NCBI GenBank assembly: GCA_946699065.1 | Contig: CAMPDV010000539.1 | Location: 177,893-241,892, forward strand | Length of the DNA stretch: 64,000 bases | Direction: 5' to 3' | From: Loxodes magnus | Taxonomy: Eukaryota; Ciliophora; Karyorelictea; Loxodida; Loxodidae | Shown: in pieces, positions 11,707-62,927 of the stretch | How positions within the stretch are numbered: the stretch's first letter is position 1 | Layout of the letters: each line of letters opens with the position of its first letter | Notes under the pieces: model-generated | What the model was told of the DNA's origin: nothing | Database searches by the model: none | Seen by the model: only the letters and a program-made list of their open reading frames with translations | Program-made: the position numbers and the translations under genes

Positions 11707-12361
11707 TCATTTTTTTTATTTCTTGCTTAGGTAAATATCTTAATTATATCTTACAGTTTCAAACTTTTATTTCATTCTTTCAAATCTCTTACTGTAAAGC
11801 CTCTTTTTATTGTAAAACTGATCATAATCATAAAAGTCTAGCAAAAATTTCCATAAATCATAAATTTTATAAGTTATTTCCTCTAATATCTAACTTTAGA
11901 ACTACTAATAATGCATATGCCAAGACACTTGCAAGTCCTACTAGGTTTTTATTATAATGCTTACGTTCTTATATATTAAACTTGTCTAACAATCTAATTT
12001 TATATGAGAAAATTAAAGATATCCCACATTCTATATAAATATTTAAATATCTTACCAATTGATATATATATTTAAAAATTATACTATCTGATTAATTTAA
12101 AAACATCTTACCTTCTAGATAATTTAAGATCTTACCTTCTTTATGTATATATTTAAAAATAATTACAGACTAGATGTTTTAAATATTTATATACTAGACA
12201 AATATCTCAATACCTTGTACTATATATATTTTATTAATATCATATCAGAAGATAACTATTTAAGATGTATAGCCATCTAGATATTCATCTAATTATCTTA
12301 CTAACTATTTGTCTTTTTATAATATATACTATCTTTATATATTATTAAATGCTCTTACCAT
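11707..12361 (-). CDS. hypothetical protein encoded by single-codon exons
   Basis: A 116-aa reading is obtained only by splicing about eleven GT..AG introns of 20-54 nt. The exons, in order, are ATG (12359-12361), ATA, TTA, a 63-nt exon (12214-12276), a 27-nt exon (12167-12193), then AAG, AAG, ATA, AAT, ATT and AAC as separate 3-nt exons, and a 234-nt last exon (11707-11940) ending in TGA. Every exon length is a multiple of three, so all introns are phase 0. The last exon reads as an ordinary charged protein (KIYDLWKFLLDFYDYDQF). No known domain was recognised. This is an independent second example of the construction in the gene at 28150. It is divergent from the gene at 12378. Confidence 0.5.
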
Positions 12362-12377
12362 TATATATTAATGTAAA

Positions 12378-13084
12378 ATGCTATCTAATGGATAACAGAC
12401 CTTTCCAACTAAATTTAATAACTAGTAATAGGATGCTGCCAATGCTCTCTACCTTATTTTGATGGAGGATCATAATTTAGCAAAGACTATTAATGAGCTC
12501 TTTCAACGAAACTGAAATTTGATCAACACAATGAAATTTTTTTAATCTGAAAGTCCTAAACTACGATAGGAATTAGTTATAAGTCCTCCTCTGTAGTAAA
12601 TTTAAGGAAGAATCTCATATACAGTATATATCTTAAAAGAAATTTAAAACTATAGAAACTCTAAGCAAGAACAATTCTAATAACTCAACGACGCAATGGA
12701 TATGGGAATATAACATCCAAAATAAGAGATTTCCTATCGGAAAATAATTATATGCTGGTATTACAAGCGGCCAATGAATAAAATACTGTTTTGCTATCAA
12801 GTTAAATAAAAAAATAATAATAGAAAATTAGGTAAGATATATTTAAAATATACTGTAAGATTTAAGGTTAATTTTATACAAAAACTCCAAATGAACAAAG
12901 AAATTCCCTATATAATAAGCAGTTAATGAAATAAATATAAAATTATTGGATTTTATCTATTGGAAAAAATAAAGATAATAGCTTAAAATCATCAAGCCTC
13001 ATTACAGTGAAGATCCAAGTAAATTCGAGGTAAAAATTTTATCTAGCATTAAATTCTCTGATTCGTAGCAAACTAAAAAAATGA
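12378..13084 (+). CDS. hypothetical protein with one 17-nt intron
   Basis: Predicted 229 aa. It starts MLSNGQQTF and continues with a good protein composition (NALYLILMEDHNLAKTINE). A 17-nt intron at 13030-13046 (GTAAAAATTTTATCTAG) puts the last exon in frame to a TGA at 13082-13084, and the total is exactly 230 codons. No domain recognised. It converges on the gene ending at 13173. The true start could be another ATG, since its ATG lies only 16 bp from that of the divergent gene. Confidence 0.55.
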
Positions 13085-18168: not shown

Positions 18169-18355
18169 GCAGTGAGAATATTTATAGGAAGAAAAGCAAT
18201 ATTCGGAGCAATCCACTGCGAAGACTTAAAAGTGACTGGAGGAACAGACCACCAAGAGTTCAAGTAACTATTAGTTGGATAGGGAGTAGGAAACTATTAA
18301 GAAAACAATCACTTCTCTGAATAACTTAAATTTAATTTAATAAATAGTTGGGGAA
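18169..18355. mobile_element. 171-bp insertion with 16-bp target duplication
   Basis: ATAAATAGTTGGGGAA occurs at 18153-18168 and 18340-18355. The first duplicate (near 3385, reverse complement) and the third (near 48405) have the site once and uninterrupted. The inserted 171 bp is markedly less AT-rich than its surroundings and is open in a protein-like frame (IFGAIHCEDLKVTGG, TDHQEFK), so it may be a captured exon fragment. No inverted terminal repeats or tail seen. Confidence 0.65.
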
Positions 18356-19371
18356 TTATATAAGCATAATAATTAACTAAAGCTTATATAATTTTAAATA
18401 AAAATTTTTCTTAAAATATAAAATTTAACTATAATATTAAAAGCTAATTTCCTTAGTTTATGAGATGAACATAAACATTGGCCTGATTTATATTTTAATT
18501 TAAAGAAAATTAAAATAATGAATAGAATGAAAAGCAATTTAGCCAATGTTTAATTTAAGATATCTGTTATATAATAGCCCTTATAATTAAAATAATAACT
18601 AAATATAAACTAAATAATAATTCTTAAAATAAATCATTTCATATACTTAGTTATTAAAAGTATAAATTCTAAATTTACTATCTTTAGTTAAGTTTTACAT
18701 TAGTTTTTATTTAATTTATTTGTTAGATAAACTTTTAAACAAAAGCAAGAAATATTTTCCTTCTCATTTATATTATTTGGTCTTTCTTCTTACATTTAGA
18801 TTTATAAATTTTTAACACTTGTCATTCTCTTATAGTAGGAAGATTTCGACTAAATTTAAATTTCCAAGTTCATATTATCAAATAATTTATTTTTTCGGTT
18901 CTTTTATAAATTTTATTCAAAAAGCTAAAAACATATAATCCTACATTTTATTTGAATCTAATATAAGGTATTTTTCTAAAGAGTAGCTAATATAAACTTA
19001 AAATAATCAAACAAATAAGAATTTAGAGTGTAAGATATAATTAAATTTTATGCTTTTATTTATCTTTTTGATGCTTCTATTATATTATTTCCAACTATTT
19101 TGCTCTTAATTATCCTTGTTAATAGTGATTGTTATGGATACCTAGTTAATTTCTTTATTAGTTTAGGAATTTTAGTTATTTTTCTACAACTATACATTTC
19201 TAAAGCCTAACTAATTAAATTAAATAAAAAAATCCAAGAAAAAATAGGTAAACATAAATTCTCTATTGTTTATAGTTATAAAACTGAAAGAAATATAAAA
19301 GTTTATTATTAGCTAAGATTTAAATATAGCTATGATATTAACTTTTAATAGACTTTATTTTCTTAATAAAT

Positions 19372-22300
19372 ATGAAAATTATAAACCAAGTATAGATTTT
19401 TATACCAATATTGCTTTCCATGCTAAGTTTGAAAGTAGAGTCATAGTGCAGAAGCGGTTGCAATAATTCATTTCTTGAAGATCAGACTTGTTAGTTGTAA
19501 TGTTCTAATTATGAATGCTTGGTGGATGGAGGGGATTGTAGAACATGCAATTATTCGTGCCTTTTTTTAAATATTGGTAATGGATATTGCGATATTTAAT
19601 GCAACTCGACTGAGTGCTAATTTGATGGTGGAGATTGTTAAGATTTATGTAGTGAAGGATGCTCTTCATCCTGAATTAATGACAGCTTTTGCTAGATCCC
19701 TTGCTAAGTTGAAGCATGCAATTTTGATGGTTTAGACTGTCAAAAATGTATGCCTCAATGTGAAAACTATTATTTAGGAAACGGTGCTTGTTAGCCTTAG
19801 TGTAATTATGCAGAATGTAATTATGACTAAGGAGATTGTAATGGAAATGAGTAATCAAATTGTTTAGATATGACAGCTTGCTTTCTTTTAGCTAATAATG
19901 GACATTGTGAAACAATATGCAACAATCCATCTTGTGGCATGGATAGTGACGAATGCTGAGGTGTTGAATGTAATTGTGAAACTTATAAAATAGCCTTTTT
20001 GTTGTAAGATGGATACTGTAATATCGAGTGTAACAATATTCAATGCAACTGAGATGATGGTGACTGCTTAGATACATGCTATTGTCCCATTCCTTTTATA
20101 AATGATTCTTTTTGCCAATGAGGATGCTACGCTCCTGCATGTAATTGAGATTATGGAGATTGCGGCTCCTTTGATACTTATTTATAGCAAAAATTCGTTC
20201 AAATTTTAAATTTAAAATAAGGGTATAATTAAAATGTATATAATACACGAAGAAAAATTCCTTTAAATGGTATTTTATGTCTAATATTGTCTTCAATTAC
20301 CATCTCTTCAGCAATAGTTATCTACTTAGTTTGGAAAAAATCTGCCAAAAAAAGTATTTAAAAGAAATGAATGAAACAGTAAAGATTAAATAATTCCTCT
20401 CAAATGGAAAATTCTAATCAAATCTTTTAAAATTATGCCTAAAAACCTAAATGGTCTTGAAGGAAAATCTTTGTTTTGGGATTTAAAAATGAAGACGAAA
20501 ATACTTTTTAGATAGATCTTTATTTTGACTTCTTGAAGTTTATCTGTTTAACTTTTTTAATTATGAGTGCTATTAGCATAGTTTCTATTGCAAATAACTA
20601 TAGAGGGGGAGAATGAAGCGGTTGATTAAACGACTATCAATCTAGTTTTTTTGATAAGATCACAATAACTAACTTATATACTACAGGATCATCAATATTA
20701 TGATTGGATGAAGATAGTGTTTACTTCTATGAAAATAAGCTTAATGATACAGAATATTATTAATATAAAGCAAGTCATTAGCAAGAGAAATTAGAAGAAG
20801 GATATATTGACTATAATAATCAATTCAAGAAAGATATCATTATAGTAGATATCATCAATCAGCTAATTCTTCTACTTTCAATTATCTTTTATAAAATCAG
20901 ATTTAAGTTACTCATTTAGAATTGAAACTAGAGAAGAAAGTTAGCTTCTAACTTTACTGTGCAATTGAAACTAAAGAAAGAATAAAGAATTGACATTGAA
21001 AACCTCAAACAAATAATGTAAAATCGATTTGGAAAAGTAAAGCAAATAATTGTTTTAAAGAAAACGAATAACTTAATATGGCTTTATTAAAAGCAACATA
21101 ATATAAACGAAAGAATTCAGACTCTTGAAGCAAATTAAAAAAATATTCAGTTCCAAAATTATAAAACCGATTTAGTAGGAAGAAAAATACTTTCAATCAT
21201 CATAAGAACAAATTTATACGATGAGTTGAATGACAATGTAGTGTTCGTAGTTTTTGAACATGAACATAGTAAAAATCTTTTTAAATAATATTAGAGATAT
21301 AAGAAATGTTAAATAAAGGATTAACAATTCTAAAGTTTTATAGACAAATTTCATGTTTAAAATAATGACTGGGTAGAACCTCAAGATATCAAATTTGAAA
21401 ATCTTGAAATAAAAAGAAGAAAAAAGATGTTGGTATCTTTATTTATGTTTTCAGTATCTATTGTTGCAATGATTTCCTTGTGCATATTTTAGGTGCTAAG
21501 CTATTAATAATATTACGAACTTCCGAGTCTATCAGATTGCTAAAATATGTGGACAAGTAGAGAGTTTAGCTACTTTTATACCTTTGAGGAAGCTTAAAAA
21601 AATTATGAAAAGGAATCGAATGCTTATTTTTGCTGATGTTCTTATTAAAAAGATGCATTTGAAAATAACGAAATAGGGAGATGATGCTAGCATTATGCAG
21701 ATCGTTATATGACTAAATAGAATTTGATATATCTTTCTTCGATACTCATCATAATAGTAAATTTCATTTCCTTTAAAATTATAAAATTTATTTCCAAATA
21801 TTTTCAAATTTAGGAGAGTATTTAGGAAGCACATAATTTCTTATCGATTGTGTTTTTCATTGAATTTTTTAATGTTGGGTTGATGAAAACTATTGTAAAT
21901 GCCTAATTACCTTATTGAATAAACAAAGATACAAATAGCAAATCTTTACGTAATAATTATGACGACTTTGAGCGTATGTGGTACATTGACATTGGACGCT
22001 AGATTACTTTAACACTATTTTTTTTGATATTTTATCCAGCTTTATGAAATTTATTAGTGCAATGACCTCTAAGTAAGTTAATTTAAAGTATACAAAGAAG
22101 ACAAAATAGATTAAGTAAATGATTCAACAAAATAAAAATAAATCCTAAGATTATAATTTCGTTTAATTATGCTAAGATTCTAAGTATTATATTTGCTGTT
22201 TAGCTTTACTCGACAGGAATTCCTATCCTTAACTTTTGTGTTTTTGCCGCTTCTCTTTTAAGACTGCTATCAGATAAATTTTTATTAAAGAGGTATTTTA

Positions 22301-23061
22301 AATGGGAAACATTCACTTAAATAAATATCCACTAAAAAGCCTTAAATATGCTTCCCAGCTGTTTATTTTTGCATGGGTTAATAAGCATTTATATGCTTGG
22401 CTGTGAAGATTTATTTCCTGAAAGTTTTGAAAACTGCATTCAAAATACGAAACTAGACATAGACTATAGATATAGATGTGATAAAGAAAATTATATCAGC
22501 TAAAGATTTTAATCAATACAAGGCACGGCTTATGGAGTATTTCTTCTAATCTGTTTATTATGCTTCGTTATATTAGCTTTAATGCTAAGTTTATTAGACA
22601 CATAATATAGATAAAATTATAGCAGCTAATTAAGCTAAATATCTAGAGTAAGATTTTTATATAGCAATCGTTAAGAAAGGTTATTCAAAATTACGACATA
22701 GAGAGTAACCCTAAGTACAAGCAAACCATTAAGAAAATAAAATAGGATTTAGTTTAGAAAAATTTGCTTAATTAGTAAAAATGTGGAAAAGAACGAAGCT
22801 AAAATTATTTAAATTCTTTTAATGAAGATACTCTTGTCGAAAATTAAAACATTAAAAGAAATGATATCACTTTTAACGACCCTAATTAAGAATTATCTTG
22901 TGAAAAAATAATTATTTGGGAAAAAAATAAGGAAATTATAGAAAAATTTAGTTCTGAGATAGATTAGAAACTCAGCATAAAAGAAGTAAGTATTTATATA
23001 GAGTGAAGGATAATCTTTCTAAGACTTGAAGATTAGTGAGAGCAAAGAAGAAAACTCTTGA
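19372..23061 (+). CDS. LNR-repeat OSCA/TMEM63-like membrane protein, copy 2 (complete)
   Basis: Predicted 1218 aa: 1219 codons after removal of introns 22648-22664 (17 nt, GTAAGATTTTTATATAG) and 22986-23001 (16 nt, GTAAGTATTTATATAG), ending with TGA at 23059. Order: signal peptide (1-24), about seven LNR-type Cys repeats (VDGGDC, FDGGDC, NYDQGDC, WDDGDC, WDYGDC), a transmembrane segment, more membrane segments, and a cytosolic stretch with the OSCA/TMEM63-like elements EPQDIKFENL and NVVFVVFEHEHSK. A multi-pass C-terminal half follows, including VGLMKTIVNAQLP and STGIPILNF, then a charged tail. It is probably a surface ion channel or scramblase with a Notch-like ectodomain. The LNR call is firm; the channel family is inferred from motif order. 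Confidence 0.75.
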
Positions 23062-24774
23062 AATGCTATAGGCGGTTTCTTTATATAAAACAATAACTAT
23101 TTTTAAATATATTAAGTAATAAGTGGTATTGTCTTATATATGAAAAGATTAATAACTCAAAAGTTCTCTAGTAAAAAGAGAAAAGCTACCTTAATCTTAA
23201 AATGATCTAGGATAATTATCCTTAGTTTTTAGATCTTAAAAGAGAAAAATTGAAACAAGCCAAACATAAATAAAAATAATAAATTATAAGGGTTTATATA
23301 AAATAGTTAGATAAAGATATATCTAAAATATAATTAAACCAAAATAAATAGGCAAAAGGTTGTATAACAGATCTTAAACCCTATTTAGTGTATTTTATAG
23401 ATAATAAGGTAAGGCTAATATAAATAAAAGATCTATTTTAGTGTTATAAAGGGTATAATAAGAGATCTTATTATCTAGCTGATTCTTTTATTCTAATAGA
23501 TAATAATTCTTAAATTGTAATATTTCTTTTTATTCACTTATGCTTAATGCTGGAAATATCTACCTATAATTACAACTAATTCCTAAGATTTATTAAGTTT
23601 TCTTAATCTAAATAAATGAGAGATCTGCCTCTCTTAACTTTCAAATTTTAGTGTAAATTCATGAAATTAAACTTACATAGAATATTTAAAAAGCTCAGCT
23701 TCCAAGCTTTTTTCTTTAATCAATGCTTATTAATATGTTTGAAGAAAATAAATTCTAAAGAATAAATAGAAAGCATACATTTAAGTAATAATTAAGGTTA
23801 ATAGCATATAAAGGAGATATATCATAGATAGAGGCTATTTAAATAATTATATTTCTAATTTAACACAAACTAAAATCTATTATATCAAAATATAAAGCCT
23901 TTACTTTAATTATCACTAAGAACAAATAAAATTGCTTTACATAGTAACTTTCATTTATGTCTTACGGAAAATAGTTAGCAATGAAATTACTATGAAGATT
24001 GTATCATAATTCCTTTAATAAAGCATTTAGATATCTAAATAAATAATTCCTTTTATTAGTCTCTAATTTATATTAATTAAGAATTTAAATATTTTGATAA
24101 AAGTAAATAAATATCTTTATTTTATATTCTAGCACTATTTAAACATTTATCCATTAATACTTATCTAGTATTTTTTTATTTTTAAAGCAAAATCTAAATT
24201 ATAACCTTCAAATTAAATACCCCTATTTCACTTATATTACCTTCTCTTTATTCTAACTTACATTTTCTAAATATCATTCCTTTAATTAAAGTCTAAGCTC
24301 TTTTAAAATTAACTAAAATGTAGAGAAATTTTAAGAAATTGGAATAAAATGATAAATGAAGCAATTTTCCTAAATACAATTTTCTTTTATAATTATCTAG
24401 CATTTAATTTACTAGAATAGTAGCTTATAATACATTTTCTGTTTCCTTCCAAGAGTTTGGATCAGAAATTATTCTAAGAAAATTATACATGAAATGCTAA
24501 ATAAAACTTGAAATTGGTACTAATTAAAAGAAAGAAATAAGATGAACATCAGAAAATCTTAATTCTACATTCAATTATTTCTAATTTATTTATGTGAAAT
24601 GATTGCTTTTAAATGATTACGAAATTAAGTATAGCTATTTACTATAAAATTATCACTGATTCTAAAATAAATTCTAGATTAGATTTGGCTTTTCTTGCTA
24701 GTAAGCAAGAAAAATTAACTTAGATACTTTAAAGTTTTAAGAAAATTCCTTAGCATTTTGTATAGATCTATAAA
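23062..24774. other. 3' flank of channel gene, duplicated, no supported gene
   Basis: Homologous to 53141-54870 with many small differences. No conserved frame could be defended between the two copies, and no RNA gene was seen. Confidence 0.4.
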
Positions 24775-25375
24775 ATGATAGTAATATCAAGGAATAACTA
24801 AGCAGATTTAAATAAAATATAGTAGGATATTTTTAAGATTGATTAAGTAGAAAATCTGTATTAGAATCTTCAAATCTTTGATTAGAAGGTTTAGAAACAA
24901 AAGTCAAAAATTTTAGAACTTTTTTAAGTATTAAAGAGGATTTTTATAAAACTTCTCTATAAGTTAAATTAGATTAGTTAGAAAATATCATTAGGGAAAT
25001 CAACACTTTTAGGTGAAAGTTCAGAGATTGTTTTTGTAAAATACCCAAATTAAATAACCGCTAAAATGCGAGGTATTGCAATTTGATTCATCTTTAAGAT
25101 TTAAGGGATTATGTCTTAAAAATCATTTAATTTCTATCTAAAGCTACTTTAAAATAAGGCTTCGACTTAAGACGGCTTTAATTATTATTTCCCATTCAAA
25201 CATATACAAAGACTTGAAGACTAAATCTTCGATGTTTGGTTTTTATAAAAGAATAATTGAAATTAAAATTTGACTAAAGCAGTATGGGATATATTTAGTA
25301 AGGTCGTTTAATATCTAAAATAAATCAAAATATCTTAATTTGTTTTTTTTCTTTCAGTCGTAATAATTGCTAGCC
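24775..25375 (+). CDS. hypothetical protein, 3' end cut by a GTPase relic
   Basis: The frame from ATG 24775 begins MIVISRNNQADLNKIQQD and continues through LGKSTLLGESSEIVFVKYPN, AIWFIFKIQG and QRLEDQIFDVWFLQKNN, a convincing protein composition. No TGA closes it before sequence homologous to the antisense GTPase gene begins near 25375, so its end is lost or spliced. The third duplicate has a frameshifted version at 54873-55240. No domain recognised; LGKSTLL only weakly recalls a P-loop. Confidence 0.5.
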
Positions 25376-25379
25376 TTGT

Positions 25380-26400
25380 TCGTTATATAAGATTTAGAAA
25401 TGTATTTAATTTACTTTTCTAGCTATATATAGAATTACAATTCTCATTCCTATAAATTTTCATACCTCTAAACTCATCTTCTAATTATCAAGAACCCTCA
25501 TTTTGGATTTCTCAATCAGTTTACCTGTTACACCTCAATTTATTAGTTTTCTTGTTAAAACTTTTCTACTCTTTATTGAATCTATTCCAAAGTAATAGTT
25601 AGTGGAGACTATTAGATTTCTTTAACATAGTCTGTTTTACTCTATATATCAAATAATTCTTTCATTTATGCTTTCAAATCTAAATATTCTTTACTTTTTT
25701 CTTACTTATTAGCGTTATAATTTTATTAAAACTTCTTTGTCTAATTTTATTTCTACTTTTATAATTCGAATATTATGAGTAAATATAAACATTTTTAATA
25801 TGGCTTAACTCTGTTCATAGAAGCTTATCATTTCTTATAGCAATTAATCTAGTCCATCATCTTCTAATTTATGCTTATAAAATATTATTTTTTAGCTAAC
25901 TTTTACACTCATAATTTACTAAATAGTTGTGAACATTTATTAGACAAGAGTCTAAAAAATGTTATAGCTTTCTTATTAAGAAAGCATGTCCATTTTAGTG
26001 AAGCATACTTTTACATATTTGATGTTACATCTATTTAAAACTTCTTCTAACTGTATCATGTTTCAACTAAAGTTTTAAGGTATATTTTCTCTCTCTGCTG
26101 AAATACATAAAAGTACGATGCTTATTCCCTCATTAAGTTAGCTTAAGCAATTACTAATTTAAGTTATTACTTCTTTATCATTTTCTTCAATACCACTAAA
26201 TCCAGGAGTATCAATAAACTAAATTAAAGGAGCTTCTTTTCTTCTTTTTCAGTTGCTTATTACATTAGATAAACCACTTGCTTTACTGTCAAATCCTTCG
26301 TTTTCTATAAATTTTTGAGTATCTAAATGAGATGCTAACTAAAAACAGTTGATAGTAATATTTAATCTGATCTATTATGATTAATAGCTATAATTCTATT
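25380..26400 (-). pseudogene. AIG1-type GTPase, P-loop lost
   Basis: Minus-strand copy of the genes at 43004 and 61193. The region from the FIENEGFDSKA motif through DTPG and TKMD is almost unchanged, but upstream of NC(F)QLASHL the sequence diverges completely, so the G1 motif GYHGSAKS is absent. The C-terminal third has indels relative to the intact copies. Without the phosphate-binding loop a working GTPase is unlikely. Confidence 0.65.
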
Positions 26401-28149: not shown

Positions 28150-31100
28150 ATGCTAAAATAATAAATGCAGCAAATGAATTCTTGCTTTAATTGTAGCAAA
28201 GAGTTCAATAAAGGAAGAAACTTGCCTAAGAAACTAAACTGTGAGCATATAATGTGCTTTGAATGCACTCTATAGCTAGAATAGTAGAAGAATTAGATAA
28301 TTTGTCCTTGATGCTAATAAATTACTAAGCAAAGTCCTTATGATCTAGAACTAGCATTTATTCCAGGATAGCAATCCAATTAAAGCGATATTTGCTAGAT
28401 GCATAATTATCCTAAAAGTTTATTATGCAAAAGTGAGTTTTAACTAATATGTCATTTATGTGCTTTTTCATAATAGCATAAAAGTCATAATATAGTAATA
28501 GCAGAAGAAGCAATAGATTAGATTAAGTAAAATCAGTTCAAAAAAGCGCAAGAATAGCAAGTTACTTTAGATGAATCTCTATCGGAAAGCTTAAAAAAGC
28601 TTAACGAAGAATACTAAAAGGCTTTGTATGAAATTTAGAGATATAAGTATGAAATAAATGATAGCTACTAGGCTATGATAAACTTGATCTAGCAGATTTA
28701 GCAATAAAGACTCTGACAAATAGAAAAAGATGAATAAGAAATCCATTAAAAGTTTACTGAATAAAGATAGCATTTAGAAACTCTAAAAAGCATACTAAGT
28801 TAGTATGATTCTTAGAACTACTAGATAATAAGAGAGTTTATTGAATTTGTTAAAAATATATCTGATCTATATTAAAAGAACAAATACTAGAAGTAAATGT
28901 TTTAAGTATTCCACTACAATAATTAAGCAGAAACTATTAAAGAGCATATAAGAAACTTTATGATGTATTAGTTATAAATAAAAGAAATCAAAGACATAGA
29001 TATTAGCACAAAAAATGGAGAAACAATTAAAATATAAATAGATCTGAGTAGCACAATAGAACAAACTAAGAAAAAAATAGAAGAATAATATGAAATCTAG
29101 CAGGAATTTTAAAAGTTGAATCTTAACGGAAAAGAATTGTAAAACTTATAGATCTTCAACTAATTTGAAAAAGAGGAGAATAATAATATCAGTCTTGAAT
29201 TTAAGAGTCTAATTTTTAAATGCAGCAAGTAAAAGAATTGAAATAAAGTATGTAAGAGATATTTAATCTAATAAAGGCGGTAATTATTTAAATATAAAGG
29301 TGGTAAAAAATTTCAAGATTAGCATGTAAGATCTATCAAAATGAGCAAGGCAGTAAATTGAATTACAACAGCATGTGCATAATTAAAATATAGAGAGTAA
29401 GCAGATAAAAAAAGAATGTTAAATCTTAGATATAGATTGTATTAAACTAAGTAAAGAGTGTAAAATATTAAAAAGCAAAGGTCGTAAGAATAATAATAAA
29501 GATCCTTGTAATCTAATTAAACTGTAGGTGGTAGATAAATTAACTTATAAAATAGAAGGTAAAAAAGCAAGCAAAATAGCTTGTACACTAAACTTACTAT
29601 AGGTGGTAAAATTATAATATAAGGTGGTAAGAAATTTAATTATTTTAAATAAAATAGGAAGTAAATAAATACGTATATAGGTAGTAATGTTTAAGCATAG
29701 GAAGTAAGAAATAAAATAGATCGTAACTAGATCATGAAATATAAAGATAGTAACTGTAATAAAGTCATTTAGTATGTTAGATATTTTTAATTTATACAAG
29801 TCTGTATAGCGTTTAATGTATTTCAAGAACGTAATATATTATTATATAAAAAAGCCTGTAAGACAGCTTAAATATATAAGTGGAATGAAAGAATCAGAAT
29901 TAAGTCTAATGTAAGTCATTTTAATTATATTAACAGACTGAAAAATATTTTCAATATAAAGAGGATTGTATGATAATCAATATGCTAAGAAGCTTGTAAT
30001 AAATCTTTTATTATTTAGGAAGTAAATCATTATAAAACACACAAGATTGTACATTATATAACTCATTTTTTAGAACGTAAGTCACTTAAATAAAAATAGC
30101 CTGTAAACAATTTTAAATTATAACTAGCCCGTATGATATTTAAGATAAAAAGCAGCTCGTATAACATTTAAACTCCTAAAAGATCGTAAGAAATTTAGAA
30201 GTAAAAGAAGCATGTAGAGCATTTTAGTGCAAAAATAGATTGTAATATTTGAGCAATATTTAGAAAGTAAAAACCTTCTATTATACATAGATCGTAAGAC
30301 TCTTTATTATTATAGGATGTAAGCCTATTAAAGAATAAAATTAGGTTGTAAGAAATTGAAATATTAGTCCGTAACAAACTTTAAATAAATAAAGAGTGTA
30401 ACTATTTTAAAGAAATAAACTAGGCTGTAAGTAATATAAATAGCTATAGCATGTAAAATATATAAAATTATTTCAAGAGAGTAATTAATTTAAAAAGCAC
30501 AGACTTTGGTAATTTTTTATTACTCTCTAGTCTGTAAGAAAGCTTAAAAGAAATCAGAACGTAAAATTCTTTATTGTTAATTTAGAAAGTAAGCTTCAAT
30601 AAATAAATTTAAGATAGTAATAAAATTTAAAAGTAATGCAAGATTGTATGCCATTTAATATAAATCCAGAATGTACTAATAATATATAACATCCAGGTAG
30701 TAAGAAATTTAAATTTCAAGCTTGTAAGATACACTATCTGCTAAAGGTGGTAACTTTGTTTGATATAGTAGATGGTAAGTAAATACGACATATCAAGAAT
30801 ATAAGATATAATAAAATGATGTGAAAAGTAAGAATTAAAATAATAATAAGATAGTAAGATGCTATAATTACTATTAGAATGTAGGATATTTTTATATTTT
30901 ATAGAAGGCATCTATTTTAAGTCTTATATAGTGGGTAAGATTCTTAATTTTATTTTTAGGAAGTGGGATATTTTCATCATTAAAAAGTAAGATATTCAAT
31001 TAAAAAAATAGATAGTAATGCTTTTTAAATAATAGATATAGAAAAACATTAAAATATCTAAGTGGGATGTAGAGCTTTAATTAAATAAAGAATGTAAGAT

Positions 31101-31960
31101 GATTTAAAAAATGTCTAGATAGTATAATATTTTAAAATAAATTAAGACTGTAAGACAATTTAAATAAACGACTAGATAGTAAAATAATTAAGTAATTTAT
31201 ATAGGTAATTTATAAAAGCTTATAAGATCGTAAGCCTTTAATTATTAAAAGAAAGTAAGATAATTTACTAAATAGATAGTAATATAATAAGTATAAGAAA
31301 GTAAGATTATACCTAAAAAGGTTGTAAGGGTATAAGATCTAGAATGCATTATATTATTTTCAGAGTGTAAGTTATTTAATCTTAGGGAGTGCGTTATTAA
31401 TTTATCAGAAAGTAACTTATTTTATGAAAATAGAATGTAAAGTTTAAACAGAGAATGTAATAAGTTAAAAAGTTAGATGGTAAATATTTAAAATCCAATA
31501 AGAAAGTAAGAAATGTAAAAAAGCTTGTATGTCTATTTTTATTTTAGGGGGTGAGAATATAAAATTCCAGAATGTAAGATCTTAGAAATCTTAAGGTTGT
31601 AAAATAAATCTATCTAAATATAAAGGCAGTATATTTGTCTATGAAAGAATGTAATGTAAGCTAAATATAGGTTGTATTTATTTTTCAAAATAGCTGCAAA
31701 TTGAGAAGTTTGAAAGTGACGTAGAAATTTTATTATTTTACTCTTATTTTACTAATATCATAAAATAACTATGTTTCAATTATAATTTTGAAAACGATTA
31801 CATTAACATAAATTTATTATAAAAATACAATGAAATTTTCAATAAGTTAGTCCAGGATTCTAGATATATATCAAAAATTAAAGTGAAATAATTTTATTTT
31901 TCTCTTTGGGTTTTAAAATTCGATGAAGAATCTTATTATTATATAGTTGTTCGAAGGTGA
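28150..31960 (+). CDS. RING / B-box / coiled-coil / ubiquitin-like protein with single-codon exon array
   Basis: Exon 1 (start 28150 or 28165, to 29247) encodes a C3HC4 RING (CFNC, CEHIMCFEC, CPWC with W = TGA) and a B-box (C-x2-H then CHLCAFSQQHKSH). A long Gln/Glu coiled coil follows, then a ubiquitin-like domain (KNGETIKIQIDLSSTIEQTKKKIEE, split here as KNGETIKIQIDL and IEQTKKKIEE; LNGKELQNL). It is thus a TRIM-like ubiquitin-ligase layout. From 29248 the gene becomes about 88 GT..AG introns separated by exons that are nearly all 3 nt. The last exon (31694-31960) reads QIEKFESDVEILLFYSYF and ends in TGA. Exon 1 is certain; joining it to the last exon through the array is inference supported by constant phase 0. 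Confidence 0.75.
29248..31693 (+). repeat. array of miniature introns separated by 3-nt exons
   Basis: The unit is NNN|GTAAG...(10-25 nt)...AG|NNN, repeated with little sequence identity between units. Examples: GCG at 29277-29279 after intron 29248-29276; GAA 29701-29703, intron 29704-29719, ATC 29720-29722; GCA 31626-31628, AAT 31648-31650, GTT 31671-31673. By eye there are about 87 internal exons, about 79 of exactly 3 nt. The others are 6, 24, 27, 30 or 33 nt, all multiples of three, with one exception (31 nt, 29937-29967). No 3-nt exon is TAA, TAG or TGA. Two introns are fused without an exon (near 31183-31225). Confidence 0.7.
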
Positions 31961-32300
31961 ACAACAAGGTCATCTTCATCAGAGGTTGGGGAAGTTAAGT
32001 ACCCATAATCGACTTTATGTCTTCCTCTGCTTTGGTGATGCAATGAGACACAATCCTGCCGAGTCCTTGGACCTCCAACAAGTAGAAAATATTACGAATA
32101 TTCTTAAATTATATCAGTATTGAACATTTTTATCAGTACTGAATAATTATACCAGTATTGAACAAGGTCTACCAGTATCTGATAATTTTATCAGTAACAA
32201 ACATTCTTGTCAGTATGAAACATTTTTTTAAAGAGCTGCGTACCAACGAGAGTGCTACGCGCTCTATAATCAAATTTATTTATTATTTATTTATTTATTT
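31943..32300 (+). mobile_element. SINE-like element, copy 1
   Basis: Begins ATAGTTGTTCGAAGG, then a hairpin module (CAGAGG...CCTCTG), the phrase CTTGGACCTCCAACAAG, several degenerate TATCAGTATTGAAC-like tandem units, and a terminal hairpin (AGAGCTGCG...CGCGCTCT) followed by a (TTTA)n tail. Related copies lie at 36133, 44201 and 45813. Compared with copies 2 and 3 it has one hairpin module instead of two. It is inserted at the 3' end of the RING gene and supplies that gene's TGA. Confidence 0.65.
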
Positions 32301-35009
32301 AAAAACATTATCTAACTAAGTTATTAATTACTTGATGAAATAATTTAAGTTAGCTATGTTTTATTTAATTTTAAATTTATTAAAGAAATGCTTCCTTTAT
32401 TGTATGATGCTTTGAAAATTTTATATTAAGTAGATGAGAAATTTTACAAAAGAGATTAGATATACGAATTTCCTACAACATACAAAAATTCTCTCAAAAT
32501 AATTGAAATTAATTAATCAAAATTTGTAAATTTTTTTAAGTAGTTCCTTTATCTCGCTTTTGGTAACTAAATTTCAAGTTGATTCTTCTAATTTGAAATT
32601 TTTATTTTTAAACCTAGTTATTTTTATTTTTTAGAATTTAATTATTATTTAGTTGCAATTGAATTGAAATTTATCTTTACTATTTTCAGTTTAATATAGT
32701 TAAAGATTAATTATTAAGCACTTAATTTCATAAGAAAGCTAATTTTCTAAGCCTTAAAAAGTTTCATAATTATATTATTTAGCCCAAGTTTATTAATTTC
32801 TTTTAGATTTTTTCTTCCTTTTAGATTCATAAAAATCAGTTGTCTAGCTATATAGGTCTTATTAATAGTTTTCTTTTGTTTATTTAGTTTTAGTTTATTT
32901 ATTTTATTTAAAGTTTTTATGATTCTAAAGCAAGCTAGCTCATTCTAAATCTCTTTAGATATCCTTAAGACTGCTCTATAAATTCTATTTTTCATCCTTA
33001 TTAGTAATTTTCAATCTTTAATATCTCTTTCTTTTCTCTTCTCTAGATAACCATGTTCTATTATATAAAGAATGTATCAAAGATAAAAATATAATTGAAG
33101 TTTTAGGACATATCAGCATGTAATAATAATAACTATATTAAAGCACTAATTTTTATATTTGGCGAATAAAAGTTTTACTATAGCGTTAATTCATAAAGGA
33201 AAGAAATTCATCAAGAACATAAGTTTACTAAATCATATAAGAACTGGTTATAATTAATTATAAAGGCTTAGTAAGTTATATTTATTTAGTTAAGCTTTAA
33301 TAAATTTATTAGCTATTATTAACTATTTAATCTAAAATCTCTCATTATATCTTTTTGGGTTTTATTTTAATAAATTAGATCAAAAAGTCTTTAATTAACA
33401 AATTTATGAAGAATAAAATCCAGAAAAACTCTGCATTTATTTTACTTTTTACCCTTAACTTTTAATGCTTAAATTAAAATTAAAAAGTACTAAGAAATTG
33501 TTTAAGATTTATTAGATAATTTTCATATTTGATTTTGATAATTTTAAAAATAATGACTATTTAAATCTATTTTATGAGTTATCTGACATGCTAAATAATT
33601 TTATAACTAAGGAATTATTTTAATAAAGTATATATATTAGCTATGATTTTTATTCTGCTTGGGATTATTCTTCCTTCTAATATTTTATTTTGAAATTTAA
33701 TAAAGCTAAACTTAGGTATGAACTACTAACTTTTAAAATTTTTATTTATTTGTGGCTTTATTAAAGAAGACTCTTTTGCAAATAAAGACTAATTTCTTAA
33801 TTAATGTATTTCTTAAGAAATATATAAATTTCTTTTTAAAGAATAAAAGGTTAAAATACATCACTATTAAAATTAAATATCTCCTTTAATATTTTTAATT
33901 TTATTATCTTTAAAAAACTAAAATTACCTATTAAATCAAATCCATCTAGTTATCAAATTAGCTGCTTTATTCTTTTTAATTTTATCTCTTTAGTAATTTC
34001 TTTTTTAGTCTTCAACAAGTTTTGACTAACACATTTTTCAAATTTATCTTATTCTAGTAAACTAAAATTAATTTGATGCCTTGTAAAGCTGTTTTCTTTA
34101 ATGATATTTTAATATCAAATCTAAAAAAAGTTCTAAAACTTAAATTGTCTTAACAATAGTTTTAAAAAAAAGCAAATGATTAATAATCTATAATATTTAT
34201 AAAAGAAGATTTAACTAAGCTTTAAATCTATTTTTTTGCATCTGGAATTTAAATAAAAAGCTATTAGATTTCTATTTATTTTCTAGACTTAATTATTGTT
34301 AAATTATATAGGAAACTCTTCTTATTCAATTTTCCATCCTAATAATTTATTATTTTTTATGAATATAATATTGATCAATTCTATTAGGAGCTTGCTTTTT
34401 ATTATTTTAATAGTTCGCTATTGATAAACTTTAATCTGCTCCGAGTTTTAATATATACTTATTAAATCTAGCATTAAAGGTTTTGTGGTTATAGCTAAAG
34501 TAAATAAACAACTTTGATTTTTTAGTAATATGGATAATTAGAAGGGATTGAAATAAAAGAGTGGACTAGATTATAAATTGTGGGATCTTAAGTATAGTTA
34601 TATTAGCTAAGTACATTTGAAATAGATTGAAAAGAGAATAGATGTAGCTAATAATATCAAATAAAAGGATTAAATGAGAATTCAATTAAAAGCTCTTAAA
34701 ATATACTTAAAGTTTATTATCAAAAAATTTCTCTTTATAGAGATAAAAAGCTTTATTTTCTAAAATTTAAATAGTTTTTATTTGAAAGTAAAAAGAAAAC
34801 AAAATAAAAAGCTCTTAATGCAATATTAATATTAAATGAGCTGTTCATTTATTTAGTTGGTTTTAAATTAGGGAAACAATTTATGAAGTCCATAAGAGAA
34901 ATAAATCTAGTTCCTTATAAATTAATTAGCTTTAAAATATTTCTAAGCATCTAATTAAACTTTTAACCTATTTTTCTAGTTAAATAAGATTGGATTCTAA
35001 TTTTATAAA
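32301..35009. other. AT-rich stretch, mostly unassigned
   Basis: Apart from a possible small ORF at 33053-33409 I could not support genes here. Long T/A-rich runs dominate and no structured RNA is visible before the tRNA at 35010. Confidence 0.35.
33053..33409 (+). CDS. possible small hypothetical protein
   Basis: 118 codons from ATG 33053 to TGA 33407-33409, reading MFYYIKNVSKIKIQLK and QEHKFTKSYKNWLQLI in the first half. The second half is more A/T-driven. No homologue in the window and no domain. Weak call. Confidence 0.3.
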
Positions 35010-35574: not shown

Positions 35575-36132
35575 TGATACTTGGAGGCTACTAGGTTTTA
35601 TAAAAAATTTATTTTATCTAAAGCTTTACTTAGTTAAGTAGGGTATATAATTAGAAGGCAATTAAGAGGAGGAAATTTTTATTCTCTTGCTTAACTTTGA
35701 AACTATAAAAAGAAAGTAAATTATCTAATGTAATTGAGAATCTATTTCTCATTATAAGTCTATTGAGCTATAAATCTGAGTATTTATTTCAGTTTAATAT
35801 GCAATGGTTTTAAAGATAAGATTAGATAGGATTGGGTAATTTCCTTAATCTATCGGATTCTTCCTTTAAATTCTTCGACTTTTTCATTAAATAAAAATCA
35901 CACATGTTTTTATAAATTATCCTCACAGTCTATATTCTAATATTATAACTATATAGAGAAATTAATCAAATGAAGATACAAAAGCTAAGCTAAGAATCGA
36001 GATTTATATCTTTAAAAAAAGGGATAAGTGAGATGATAAAGGAGAAATGATAATAAATAGATAATTAGAATGGTAATTAATACAACGAATTTAGATTCTG
36101 ATTATTATATATTTTTTTTTTTTTAAGCCGCC

Positions 36133-36632
36133 ATAGTTGTTCGAAGGTGAACAAAAAGGTCATCTTCATCAGAGGTTGGGGAAGTTAAGTACCCATAATC
36201 AACTTTATGTCTTCCTCTGCTTTGGTTTGGTCTCGAGACATAAGATTCTTAGACCTTCGACACTGGCTTGGCTTGGCTTAGTTTAGTTTTAATTCTGGAA
36301 CAAAAAAGAAATAATATTGCGAGCTTCATCAGAGGTGGGGAATTTAAGTACCCATAATTGACACATGTCGTCCTCTGCTTTGGTGGGGCAATGAGACACA
36401 ATCCTGCCGAGTCCTTGGACCTCCAACAAGTAGAAAATATTACGAATATTCTTAAATTATATCAGTATTGAACATTTTTATCAGTACTGAATAATTATAC
36501 CAGTATTGAACAAGGTCTATCAGTATCTGATAATTTTATCAGTAACAAACATTCTTGTCAGTATGAAACATTTTTTTTAAAGAGCTGCGCATCAATGAGA
36601 GTGCTACGCGCTCTATAATCAAATTTATTTCT
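36133..36632 (+). mobile_element. SINE-like element, copy 2 (two hairpin modules)
   Basis: Longest plus-strand copy: starts ATAGTTGTTCGAAGG, first CAGAGG/CCTCTG module, a spacer with GGCTTGGCTTGG repeats, a second module (36326-36378), then the shared 3' half with tandem CAGTATTGAAC units and the AGAGCTGCGC...GCGCTCT hairpin. The tail is short. Confidence 0.65.
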
Positions 36633-36879
36633 TTATTATCAAATAAAAAGGCTACCATCTAATGGATAATTTAAACTAATTCATAACTTTAAAATAATGA
36701 TATATCAATATTTAAGCTGAACTCTACAACTAAGGAATTTGGCTTAAAATATTAAAGATAGTGTATATAACCTAAGAAAAATAGTTATTTTTATTAAAAT
36801 TATATATGATGCTTATATATTAATCTTATTATATTTACATCTAATTGAGTGTGTAAGTCTCTATTTTTTCTATTTTAAA

Positions 36880-43003: not shown

Positions 43004-44098
43004 ATGCAGATTAATTACTAGTAGTACCCTTCCTTTTCAATTATTACCATTGGATATCATGGATCTGCCAAAAGTACTCTTCTCAACTGCTTATCCTTAG
43101 GATCTCATTAAGATCACGAAAAACTCTTTATAGAAAACGAAGGATTTGACAGTAAAGCAAGTGGTTTATCTAATGTAATAAGCAACTGAAAAAGAAGAAA
43201 AGAAGCTCCTTTAATTTAGTTTATTGATACTCCTGGATTTAGTGGTATTGAAGAAAATGATAAAGAAGTAATAACTTAAATTAGTAATTGCTTAAGCTAA
43301 CTTAATGAGGGAATAAGCATCGTACTTTTATGTATTTCAGCAGAGAGAGAAAATATACCTTAAAACTTTAGTTGAAACATGATACAGTTAGAAGAAGTTT
43401 TAAATAGATGTAACATCAAATATGTAAAAGTATGCTTCACTAAAATGGACATGCTTTCTTAATAAGAAAGCTATAACATTTTTTAGACTCTTGTCTAATA
43501 AATGTTCACAACTATTTAGTAAATTATGAGTGTAAAAGTTAGCTAAAAAATAATATTTTATAAGCATAAATTAGAAGATGATGGACTAGATTAATTGCTA
43601 TAAGAAATGCTAGGATATTAGGAACAAAACTAAGTCATTACAAGCGTTAACATCTAAACATAGCAAGCATCATAATTGTCTAACTTATATGAGTAAAACT
43701 AAAATTAGACAGTGGAGTTACAACAAAGTTATAGCACTAATTCGTAAGAAGAAAGTAAAGAATATTTAGATTTGAAAGCATAAATGAAAGAACTATTTGA
43801 TATGTAGAGTAAATTGACAGCAGACTATGTTAAAGAAATACAATAATTGCCACTAACTATTACTTAGGAATAATTTAAATAAAGAGTAGAAAAGTTTTAG
43901 CAAGAAAACTAATAAATTAAGATGTAGCAAATTAGACTGATTGAGAAAATACAAAATGAGGATTCTTAGTAATTAGAAGATATGTTTTAGAGGTATAAAT
44001 GATTATAGGAATAAGAAATGCAACTTTACAAATAGCTAGAAGAGTAAAGTAAAGAATTTTCTTAAATCTAGCATACAAATAGTGGTAATTATGAGTGA
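43004..44098 (+). CDS. AIG1/GIMAP-type GTPase, copy A
   Basis: 364 aa, TGA at 44096-44098. The N-terminal G domain has G1 GYHGSAKST (17-25), G3 DTPG (75-78) and G4 TKMD (146-149), with the AIG1-like spacing and the phrase FIDTPGFSG. The C-terminal 170 residues are Gln/Glu-rich and probably coiled coil (LDLKAQMKELFDMQSKL). TAA and TAG supply many Gln codons. AIG1/GIMAP proteins are septin-like GTPases, often membrane linked; no membrane segment is seen here. An almost identical gene of equal length lies at 61193 on the other strand, and a P-loop-less copy at 25380. Confidence 0.85.
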
Positions 44099-44200
44099 GA
44101 TTAAAAGAAATAAACATAGATACTCTAAATTATTTTAAGTGATTTTAATAAAAATAAAGCTAATACTTTATGAATTAAATTTAATTATTTTAAAGTTATA

Positions 44201-44697
44201 AATAAATAAATAAATTTGATTATAGAGCGCGTAACACTCTCATTGATGCGCAGCTCTTTAAAAAAAATGTTTCATACTGACAAGAATGTTTGTTACTGAT
44301 AAAATTATCAGATACTGATAAATCTTGTTCAATACTGGTATAATTATTCAGTACCGATAAAAATGTTCAATACTGATATAATTTTAGAATACTCGTAATC
44401 TTTAATACTTGTTGGAGGTCCAATGACATGGCAGGATTTTGTCTCATTGCATCACCAAAGCAGAGGACAACATGTATCAATTATGGCACTTAAATTCCCC
44501 ACCTCTGATGAAGCTCGCAAAAATAATTTCCTTTTATTTCCAGAATTACAAACTGAAATAAGCAAGTGCCGAAGGTCAAATTAACAGATGTCTCGAGGCC
44601 AAGCCAAAGCAGAGGAAGACATAAAATCGATTATGGGTACTTAATTTTCCCAACCTCTTATGAAGATGTCCCTTGTTATTCACCTTCAAACAACTAT
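44201..44697 (-). mobile_element. SINE-like element, copy 3
   Basis: Reverse-oriented full copy with a (TTTA)n tail at the left (44201-44215), terminal hairpin AGAGCGCGT, tandem units and two CAGAGG modules. The right arm of the inverted repeat shows the empty site (AGTTATAATAATTATT near 61090), so insertion followed the duplication. A short target duplication around TTATAA is likely. Confidence 0.7.
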
Positions 44698-45812
44698 GGG
44701 GGTTTTTAAAAATATATAATAATTATTCTATTTTTTAATTGATAAACTAGTTAAATTAAAATTAATCTCATTCTTTCATAAATGTAAGCTAATAGTTAAA
44801 ATTAAATAAAGAAAGAAATTAATAAAAAGCTTAATACTTACAAATTTATAATATTAAGCAAAAACTGGCAACTTTGCTATAAAAAATTTTAAAAACAAAC
44901 CTAGAAGATGATCCACTGATTTCCATATACTGTAACTCCTTTTAATTAAATTTTTTTTATTTTAGAATATAATAATTTGTAATTTAACTCACTTATTTAA
45001 TATATTAATAAATAAAATAAATTAAGCATATTTAATGGTAATAAAATAATTTTTGATTAATGAGAAATAAACTAAAGAGATTTATAGCTAAAAGCTATTT
45101 TACTTTTTCAGTAAACTTTAACTTTAGCTATTGAATTTTAATTAAGAAATAGAGTATATAACTTGTAATAAGTATTAGTAAAATGAAAATATAAGAATAT
45201 TTAGTAAATTTTATATCAAGCATAACCTAAAAATATCTAATAGGAATATTAAAAACATTAAAATTATTCATCAGCTATACAATTATTAAACTAATTTTAA
45301 AAAAATAGATATATATCAGCATCTTTTTATAAAACTAATTAAATTTAAAATCTAAAATTTTTGCTAAATCTTTACTAAATTTTAAATATTTTTAACATTT
45401 TCTCTAAATATCAAATCTAAAAGGTAAATTTAGAATATTATGAAATAAATTTTTGAGTGTTATTTCAGAAAAAAATAATAAAAAATATTTATAAGCAAAC
45501 TATTTTCAATTTATTAATATTAACTACTAGATCATTTTTATAAGTTAATTAATAGAAAATCTTAAAATTATAAAAAATTAATTAAGTTTTAACTATTTTA
45601 TCTAAATTATAAAATAATTTATTTAATAATTTATTTTTACCTTTAAAGTACAAATTTAGATCATCTTTAAAAAAATAAAGAAAAATAAAAATAAAAAGAG
45701 ACATTTGTTTAATCTTAACGAAAAACTAAAAATTATATAATTTATTAAATTTCTCCTTTTTACTATATTTTAACTTTTTAATTGATTTTTTATAGTAAAA
45801 ATTTAATATAAT

Positions 45813-46033
45813 CTTGGACCTCCAACAAGTATTAAAGATACGAGTATTCTGAAATTATATCAATATTGAACATTTTTATCAGTACTGAATAATTATACCA
45901 GTACTGAATAAGGTTTATCAGTATCTGATAATTTTATCAGTAAAAAACATTCTTGTCAATATGAAACATTTTTTTAAAGAGCTGCGCACCAATGAGAGTG
46001 TTACGCGCTCTATAATCAAATTTATTTATTTAT
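45813..46033 (+). mobile_element. SINE-like element, copy 4, 5'-truncated
   Basis: Starts at the internal phrase CTTGGACCTCC and keeps the tandem units, the AGAGCTGCGC...GCGCTCT hairpin and a TTTA tail. Copy 2 of the duplication near 16535-16560 preserves the uninterrupted site. 5' truncation with an intact tail is typical of target-primed reverse transcription. Confidence 0.7.
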
Positions 46034-48327: not shown

Positions 48328-49451
48328 AGATTTAAGATATATAATTATAAGAAATTGCTTTAGAGGAAGTATATTAAAATAGAAAATACTAGAATTAAAC
48401 ATATAAATAATTTTTGAATGATATAAGCATAATAATTAAGCAGTGCATATATAATTTAATCAAATAATTATTTTTCTTAAAATATAAAATTTAACTATAA
48501 TATTAGAAGCTAAATTCCTTAGTTATTAGTTGAACATAAACATTGGACTGATTTATATTTTAATTTAAGGAAGCTAAAATTAAAATAATAAAAAGAATGA
48601 AAAGTAATTTAGCCAAAGTTTTAATTTAAGATATTTATTATATAATAGTCCTTATAATTAAAATAATAACTAAATATAAACTAACTAATTATTCTTAAAA
48701 TAAATCATTTCATATACTTAGTTATTAAAAGTATAAATCCTAAATTTACTATCTTTAGTTAAGTTTTACATTAATTTAATTTAATTATTAGACAGACTTT
48801 TTAACAATAACGAGAAATCTTTTCTTTTTCATTTATTTTATTTGGACTTTCTTCTTACATTTTCCTTAAAAGTGTTTAGCACTTGTAATTTACTTATAGT
48901 AGGAAGATTTTAGCTAAATTTAAGTTTTCAAGATTATATTATCATATAATTTATTTTTTCGGATCTTCTATAAATTTTATTCTAAAAAGCTAAAAACATA
49001 TAATCATACACTTTATTTTTAAATTAATTGAAGGTAATTTTTTTAAAGAGTAGCCAAGATAAAATTAGAACAATTATATAAATAAGAATTTAGAATGTAG
49101 AATATTATTAAATGTTATGCTTTTATCTATCTTTTTGATGTTTCTATTCTATTATTTCTAACTCTATTTTTCTTATAATTCCTTGTTAATAGTGATTGAT
49201 ATGAATACCTAGTTAATTTCTTTATTTCTTTCTTTATTAATTTAGGAATTTTAATTATTTTTCTACAATTATACATTTTTAAATCTAACTACTTAAATAG
49301 AATTATCAAATCCAAGTAAAAAATAGGTAAGCATAAACAGCTCTATTGCTTATAGTTATAAAGCTGAAAGAATATAAAAGTTTATTTATTAGTTAAGATG
49401 TAAATTTAGCTATGATATTAACTTTTAATATATTTTATTTTCTTAATAAAT

Positions 49452-52400: not shown

Positions 52401-53140
52401 TAAAAATTCGCTAAAAAGCCTTAAATATGCTACCCAGCTGTTTATTTTTGCATGGGTTAATAAGCATTTATATGCTAGGCTGTGAAGACTTATTTCCTGA
52501 AAATTTTGAAAACTGTACTCAGAATACGAAACTAGACATAGACTATAGATATAGATGTGATAAAGAAAATTATATCAGCTAAAGATTTTAATAAATGCAA
52601 GGCACGGCTTACGGAGTATTTCTTCTAATCTGTCTATTATGCTTCGCAGTATTAGCTTTAATACTAAAATTATTAGACTCGTCATACAAAAGGAATTATA
52701 GCAGCTAATTAAGCTAAATATCTAAAGTAAGATTTTTATATAGCAATAATTAAGCAAAGTTATTAAAAACTACGACATAGAGAGTAACCCTAAGTACAAA
52801 CAAACCATTAAGAAAATAAAGTAGGATTTAGTTTAGAAAAATTTGCTTAATTAGTAAAAATGTGGAAAAGAACGAAGCTAAGATTATTTAAGTACTTTTA
52901 ATGAAGAAACTCTTATCGAAGATTAAAATTTTGAAAGAAATGACATCACTTTTAACGACCCTAATTAAGTATTAACTTTGGTAGATACAAATATTTAGCA
53001 AAAAAATTAGGAAAGCATAGAAAAACTTAGCTCAGAAATAGATTAAAAATGCAGCATAAAAGAAGTAAGTATTTATATAGGGTGAAGAATAATATTTCTA
53101 AGATTTAAAGATTAGTGAGAGAAAAGAAGAAAATACTTGA
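49452..53140 (+). pseudogene. LNR-repeat OSCA/TMEM63-like gene, copy 3, one-base deletion
   Basis: Same architecture, introns (52727-52743 and 53065-53080) and TGA (53138-53140) as copy 2, and closely similar along its length. After introns it is one base short of a multiple of three. The loss lies in the A-run at 50330-50336, between the LNR region and the first transmembrane segment, where copies 1 and 2 have one base more. Unless this is a sequencing error, the channel half is out of frame. The rest of the frame is well kept, so the mutation would be recent. Confidence 0.65.
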
Positions 53141-54872: not shown

Positions 54873-55240
54873 TATAAATGATAGTAATATCAAGGAATAG
54901 CTTAATGAGACTTAAATAAAATTTAGCAGGATATTTTTAAAATTATTTAAGTAAAAAATCTTAAATTAGTCTCAGTAAATCTTTAAATTAAAAGATTTAG
55001 ATTCAAATATTAAAAATTGTAGAACCATGCATATATATGATAAACAAGGCTTTCACTCTAGAAATAGCTTTTTCATCCATTAAATTAGTTTAATTTAATT
55101 ACAAATTATCATAATTGAAATAAATATTTTTAAATAAACACCCAGAGATTGGTGGAGTTCACAGATTTATTCTTACTCGGAAATAAGAGTATTGTAATAT
55201 GATTCATATTTAAAGATAAAAGGAATTATATCTTGCTAAT
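54873..55240 (+). pseudogene. frameshifted copy of the gene at 24775
   Basis: Starts with the same MIVISRN codons, then a one-base insertion breaks the frame within about ten codons. A later stretch near 55180-55240 still resembles the AIWFIFKIQG region. An unrelated segment separates the two parts. Confidence 0.4.
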
Positions 55241-62843: not shown

Positions 62844-62927
62844 GGCAGTTTGTCCGAGTCGGTTAAGGAGACAGACTTAAGATCTGTTGCACACTAGTGC
62901 GCGTGGGTTCGAATCCCACAGCTGCCA
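62844..62927 (+). tRNA. tRNA-Leu(UAA)
   Basis: 84 nt, identical to the genes at 7299 and 42364: acceptor GGCAGTT/AGCTGCC, anticodon loop CTTAAGA, long variable arm. Confidence 0.93.

Follow-up and report, generated by a model that had tools for sequence, protein, structure and literature searches.

The introns of Loxodes are tiny, with a mean length of 19.3 nucleotides (nt) and 93% of them no longer than 25 nt, and lengths divisible by 3 are relatively depleted among them (PMC11441545). The same genome paper describes a macronuclear assembly of L. magnus of 706 Mbp that uses genetic code table 27, and in its pipeline introns were derived from RNA-seq mappings; it also cites public L. magnus RNA-seq under PRJEB55324. 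On exon size, Arabidopsis APC11, micro-Ex8 of Drosophila homothorax and plant microexons indicate that spliceosomes can use exons of 1–3 nt (PMC4674806, PMC7392893, PMC8831610). Here we describe a locus in a 64,000-nt stretch of DNA from the freshwater karyorelict ciliate L. magnus (contig CAMPDV010000539.1, positions 177,893 to 241,892 of the forward strand; hereafter the window), in which a chain of GT...AG intron-like units follows a coding exon on the plus strand, with neighbouring units almost always exactly 3 nt apart.

Judged from its sequence, the array is probably where a RING/B-box/ubiquitin-like gene has its 3′ portion, a stretch made up mostly of 3-nt exons split by about 89 tiny spliceosomal introns. 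Some 145 codons would thus be broken up by these introns. What we observed directly is the spacing and its genome-wide specificity, the frame that runs from the ubiquitin-like (UBL) exon to a stop codon, the conservation of terminal triplets between diverged genes, the conserved splice sites and whole-unit change seen in a paralog, and the separate evolution of introns and triplets. The coordinates are given in Table 1.

Table 1. Features of the array gene, in positions of the window.
Feature	Position	Strand	Basis
Exon 1, encoding a RING / B-box / ubiquitin-like protein; Trp written as in-frame TGA	28165..29251	+	Pfam and reading frame
Ubiquitin-like domain, residues 279-340	28999..29184	+	Pfam, E 6.4e-8
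Array: about 89 tiny introns, with 88 internal exons between them (77 measuring 3 nt)	29252..31693	+	Splice-site parsing
First array part, phase-1 reading CGACTQKYQCHPCEACGGSRNHIFQP	29277..29857	+	Joined exons
Damaged stretch, lacking a pair of complete units (54 nt in all) that paralog L042 carries near 30980-31010	30960..31068	+	Alignment with L042
Last exon, TGA stop at 31702-31704	31694..31704	+	Frame continuity

A preliminary description had proposed tiny introns spaced by 3 nt, and the counts bear out the spacing. The motif AG-N3-GT occurs 82 times between 29248 and 31693, as against about 5.5 expected from the remaining window, and the other AG-to-GT spacers in this interval are mostly close to or moderately over the background of the rest of the window. 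In 200 dinucleotide shuffles of 29252-31693, the motif was found 12.4 times on average (standard deviation 3.4, never more than 27), and the counts for 2-, 4- and 5-nt spacers lie under chance (1, 3 and 4 vs about 12.7). A parser without any preference for 3 nt recovered 85 introns; of the 84 spacers between them, 71 measure exactly 3 nt. On the 200 shuffles its best chain had at most two such spacers.

For the inventory of exons, we used a constrained parser whose path had to begin where exon 1 stops and finish at the final acceptor; GT and AG were required and non-multiples of 3 were penalised. It yielded 89 introns, which sum to 2007 nt, and 88 exons, which sum to 435 nt, namely 77 exons of 3 nt, four of 6 nt, three of 30 nt, two of 27 nt, one of 12 nt and one of 24 nt. 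No 31-nt exon was required, so the single exception of that length reported at first disappears; the end of the array at 31693 stands as first given, and its start moves from 29248 to 29252, where the first intron begins. Decayed units, canonical in the paralog L042, account for some of the longer "exons".

The array introns measure 14-51 nt (median 23, mean 22.6), with 86 of 89 at 16-27 nt, which is within the Loxodes range and slightly above the species mean (22.6 vs 19.3 nt). A GTA donor is present in 84 of them and a TAG or AAG acceptor in 81. Since intron lengths are spread nearly evenly over the three classes modulo 3 (27/34/28), the spacer is the fixed quantity and the unit length is not, as had been argued earlier to set the array apart from a satellite. 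Additionally, Tandem Repeats Finder covers only 31239-31318 of the array, the window array has no near-identical unit core, and the conserved unit length and sequence of a tandem minisatellite are not seen.

The 77 triplets are richer in GC than the intron interiors (30.3% vs 14.5%), and none of them is TAA, TAG or TGA. Both statements had been made before and hold, but the lack of stop triplets is no sign of coding, because other arrays use TGA and TAA as 3-nt exons. A second, decayed AG-N3-GTA cluster lies on the minus strand at 11960-12460, with six occurrences in one 500-nt bin and at most two in the other minus-strand bins; no coding exon was recognised by eye upstream of it.

The spacing is specific across the genome. 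In the assembly of 705,730,643 bases, a three-unit AG-N3-GTAAG pattern gave 37,955 matches with a spacer of 3 nt, a figure that counts overlapping and clustered matches and not arrays. The reversed-pattern control gave 677 matches, and spacers of 2 and 4 nt gave 38 and 69, respectively. No array was found in 20 stretches of 10 kb, a sample spread over contigs by hand. Taken together, paralog conservation (see below), frame continuity into the stop and these genome-wide spacer counts favour the view that 3-nt exons lie between tiny introns, as the preliminary description suggested.

For comparison, we analysed 13 regions from the top of the matches listed, together with the window and L042. The exon before the array is ubiquitin-like by Pfam over the family cut-off in L010, L013, L016 and L019, under the cut-off in L009, L012 and L015, and by resemblance only in L014 and L011. 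In L020 it has a weak kinase match, and L021 is a near-identical copy of L020. Units of 31, 32 or 35 nt occur in other arrays, and L009 and L012 often have a 27-nt unit, 24 nt of which are conserved. When 150 copies of the L019 UBL gene were scored, the matches ended mostly at query residues 82-87, a few at 90-94 and one at 102; the array-coded tail of L019 starts at residue 80. The copy that matches to residue 102 (G000:C378:192017-192304, plus strand) has a possibly intron-poor or retrocopied tail.

In exon 1 of the window gene, Pfam places a ubiquitin and a B-box domain over the cut-off and a RING domain under it; for this query, Q was entered at three TGA codons. One in-frame TGA, at 28309, lies inside the RING zinc motif (ICP-TGA-C), and the 1627 coding-like codons of the window include 17 TGA and no TGG. 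Tryptophan is apparently TGA-only in the coding segments of the window, yet TGG is present in array-coded tails (REWG).

Exon 1 comprises 362 codons plus one nucleotide, so the upstream frame enters the array in phase 1 and codons are split across introns. The phase-1 tail begins CGACTQKYQCHPCEACGGSRNH, predicts peptides such as YQCHPCEACGGSR and terminates SAN-TGA at 31702, with extra in-frame TGAs at 31711 and 31717 (two within 18 nt). The exon 1 boundary at 29251 and this phase-1 TGA cluster led us to reject the earlier reading of one codon per exon in phase 0 throughout. The exons have the size of codons without being codons, and the peptide suggested before, AVHAHRNISVILVK, is out of frame given phase-1 introns.

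The upstream phase is 1 in the window and in eight of eight UBL loci scored (L011 excluded), and it is 2 in the kinase pair. Because each gene keeps one phase while phases differ between genes, the unit is the 3-nt exon and not the codon. The end of the array is clear in six genes (window, L010, L011, L013, L016 and L019, the phase of L011 being set by analogy). There, a TGA within four whole codons past the end was found in the phase-1 frame in 6/6 cases, in frame 0 in 2/6 and in frame 1 in 0/6.

Compared with permuted orders of the 3-nt exons, the phase-1 tail contains 13 cysteines (p 0.006) and five CxxC motifs (p 6e-4), and no CxxC motif is present in the phase-0 and phase-2 readings. As exon order matters for cysteines and CxxC in phase 1, adjacent triplets seem to be read jointly across introns. 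One 26-aa piece of the tail has a sub-threshold zf-CXXC match (E 0.19). A codon-driven gene finder returned an incoherent parse, because codon scores overrode splice sites, and the exon 1 boundary alone was retained from it.

In our view, nothing speaks more strongly for triplets that end up in a protein than the end of the array, which is conserved at the protein level without conservation of the introns. Across five diverged UBL genes in which this end is clear (the last introns of L019 were re-parsed by hand), the last six triplets are 67.8% identical (permutation p 5e-5), as compared with 57.0% for introns and 55.1% for shuffled introns. Read in phase 1, the tails end in YREWGLRS, YREWGLINK and LREWGLL and, by hand, in LCEWGLL and YRVWGLMI, each followed by a stop. 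The same terminal residues are written with differing codons: arginine appears as CGC, CGT and AGA, and the glycine and leucine codons vary as well.

A genome search with the exon 1 protein gave 114 matches at E<=1e-5. Leaving aside the match to the window itself, ten of them reach 75-85% identity over 324 or more of the 355 residues; close paralogs besides L042 lie on C258, C466 and C539. The array of L042 aligns end to end with that of the window, with intron interiors about 3% different, and has 93 exons by the constrained parser, 84 of them 3 nt long. L042 has GT where the window reads GA (29941) or GC (31347). The GT and AG dinucleotides changed at 1 of 356 sites, as against 51 of 1648 interior sites, when the window supplied the labels, and at 5 of 368 as against 48 of 1699 with the labels of L042. 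The six triplet differences comprise three synonymous and three non-synonymous changes in phase 1 and one and five in phase 0, too few to prove the phase.

Introns and triplets have evolved apart. A homogeneous core was present in 4 of the 11 arrays tested, and within it intron identity is 95.4% in L009, 91.6% in L012, 97.5% in L010 and 99.1% in L019, whereas triplet identity is 43.8, 44.1, 49.1 and 42.2%, respectively. In L019, sixteen units carry almost identical 28-nt introns following triplets such as CGA, AAT, TGA and CCT. Because core introns are 92-99% alike and triplets only 42-49%, intron and exon evolve separately. Simple tandem duplication of an intron with its triplet was discarded, as it cannot yield near-identical introns beside divergent triplets. 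These cores would have arisen either from intron copies set between existing coding bases, or by homogenisation that spared three bases, or under strong diversifying pressure on the triplets.

The kinase pair L020/L021 (G000:C16) points the same way: there, triplets differ at 13 of 240 sites and intron interiors at 17 of 2073 (p 3e-6), about a 6.6-fold excess, with nine differences in the upstream 900 nt. The window/L042 pair has no triplet excess (6/231 vs 51/1648), and the L017/L018 pair offers only 7 matched exons with 0 triplet changes. The comparison of L009 with L012 was left out of the evidence, since it included a misaligned core.

Several results speak against a spliced, protein-coding array. 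The window and L042 triplets change at the pace of intron interiors, which is not purifying selection, and the triplets of the kinase pair change faster still than their introns. The array introns, with 27 of 89 lengths divisible by 3, lack the depletion of such lengths seen in the species at large. Scored by codon log-odds, the joined tail is negative whatever the phase (-20.0 for phase 1, -36.2 and -80.1 for the remaining two), and the phase-1 score exceeds that of permuted exon orders at p 0.077 only. Searches of Pfam, the protein database and PDB turned up no relative of the spliced tail. Additionally, 8 of 14 arrays have no stop directly after the parsed end.

The intron-like pace of the window/L042 triplets would equally suit an array that is transcribed but excised as one big intron (29252-31693) or mostly skipped, with the 3-nt spacing serving only to make rare inclusion harmless. 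Joining 29251 to 31694 is likewise in frame and reaches the TGA. We nevertheless consider this unlikely, as diverged genes conserve the terminal triplets at the protein level, the CxxC motifs depend on exon order, and Loxodes introns are mostly no longer than 25 nt (PMC11441545).

A non-coding satellite whose repeat unit is merely intron-like, with no role in a protein, would account for the near-identical units of four arrays, and low-complexity tandem repeats make up 231 Mbp of the macronuclear assembly (PMC11441545). We regard it as very unlikely, because the fixed quantity is the spacer and not the unit length, and because in the four homogeneous arrays the triplets diverge while the introns do not. 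The arrays also come after coding exons in one constant phase, with terminal triplets conserved and introns not.

Even less probable is unspliced translation into a short-repeat protein, for example with nine residues per 27-nt unit, TAA and TAG read as glutamine and TGA able to be read as tryptophan. The frequent 27-nt unit of L009 and L012 fits this idea, but unit lengths in the window fall evenly into all three classes modulo 3 (33/28/27), so the unspliced frame is lost, and the longer units of other arrays (31, 32 and 35 nt) argue the same. We rejected an unspliced 9-codon repeat on the basis of unit length modulo 3. The least credible explanation, that the units are tiny internal eliminated sequences excised from DNA and not from RNA, draws on the precise removal of such sequences in ciliates, but the assembly, which already suggests that macronuclear DNA contains the array, has the size of a somatic genome, where excision would be complete, and no canonical internal eliminated sequences were reported in the species (PMC11441545).

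If the array is spliced into a coding tail, the splicing machinery would recognise every intron as a whole through its own GTAAG...AG ends, that is, by intron definition, presumably the natural mode at such a size; 3-nt exons leave no space for exon definition or exon-bound factors. The introns would be removed successively, probably from 5′ to 3′, and each next splice would therefore have an upstream exon of normal length. Since the exons are multiples of 3, any donor joined to any later acceptor, a skipped exon or merged introns would keep the frame. In the window, for example, the donor at 29940-29941 is lost, and the merging of two introns into one of 51 nt would drop one triplet and leave the frame intact.

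Such tolerance would lower the cost of splicing errors and let arrays grow or shrink by whole units where they encode linkers. The strict 3-nt spacing might then exist because tolerance favours whole-unit change, and triplets at the conserved array end would be held while the linker arrays expand.

More tentatively, a genome-wide class of Loxodes genes might have tails built from runs of 3-nt exons, with sequential, intron-defined splicing and with intron copying or homogenising that spares the coding triplets. The runs would act as frame-proof, expandable linkers in which mis-splicing drops whole residues only, leading to families that differ in tail length and to fast diversification of ubiquitin-pathway and kinase tails.

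If the arrays are spliced, one spliceosome copes with about 90 successive introns, mostly 3 nt apart, in an extreme case of gene fragmentation. At the physical limit, such genes would then put intron definition, splice order and splicing fidelity to a natural test. The base-by-base parting of intron and exon evolution also bears on how spliceosomal introns multiply. Finally, a whole class of coding sequence can evade gene finding: the published pipeline relied on RNA-seq mappings for its introns, and mapping exons of 3 nt is difficult.

Elsewhere in the window, three copies of a gene with 4-5 LNR (Lin-12/Notch) repeats (906-1340, minus strand; 19420-19968 and 49500-49934, plus strand) sit in large duplicated blocks, such as 18340-25212 and 48403-55329 with 86% identity. 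Three AIG1-type GTPase genes are located at 25519-26341 (minus), 43100-44119 (plus) and 61220-62191 (minus), and the segment 41288-44201 copies 61090-64000 in inverted orientation (97%). Another, dispersed repeat, inside which a 19-bp sequence is repeated in tandem (TATCAGTATTGAACATTTT), occurs at 31943-32310, 36101-36639, 44182-44723 and 45813-46033, one of its copies lying directly downstream of the array gene.

Among the matches listed, judged by title and abstract, we found no report of such 3-nt-exon arrays in the open-access literature, and the genome paper (PMC11441545) was the only one of these matches to combine "Loxodes magnus" with "exons". The legend of its figure 3 leaves "orphan introns" out of the length plot, a term not explained in the accessible portion of its text, and its authors may already have noticed these arrays. 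Among the tiny introns of heterotrich and karyorelict ciliates, those of Loxodes fit the array introns in size and in their GT...AG ends; the accessible portion of the same paper describes no arrays of 3-nt exons.

Among other systems, the 1-nt and 3-nt exons of Arabidopsis, Drosophila and plants are presented in the cited papers as isolated microexons, whereas the Loxodes array has dozens in tandem. A parallel is offered by the micro-exon genes (MEGs) of Schistosoma mansoni, in which many very short exons likewise follow one another, most of them divisible by three in length and hard to annotate (PMC10526429), and 77 of the 88 array exons are 3 nt long. MEG exons differ in being mostly 15 bp (range 3-81 in the abstract, 6-81 in the text), with 10-20 per gene, and MEG introns span 0.1-5 kbp, as against a median of 23 nt in the array (PMC10526429). 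In their near-identical introns at many positions (here within 4 of 11 arrays), the Loxodes arrays recall introner and introner-like elements, which are marked by independent loci and target-site duplication, but the Loxodes copies stand in tandem, 3 nt apart, inside one gene.

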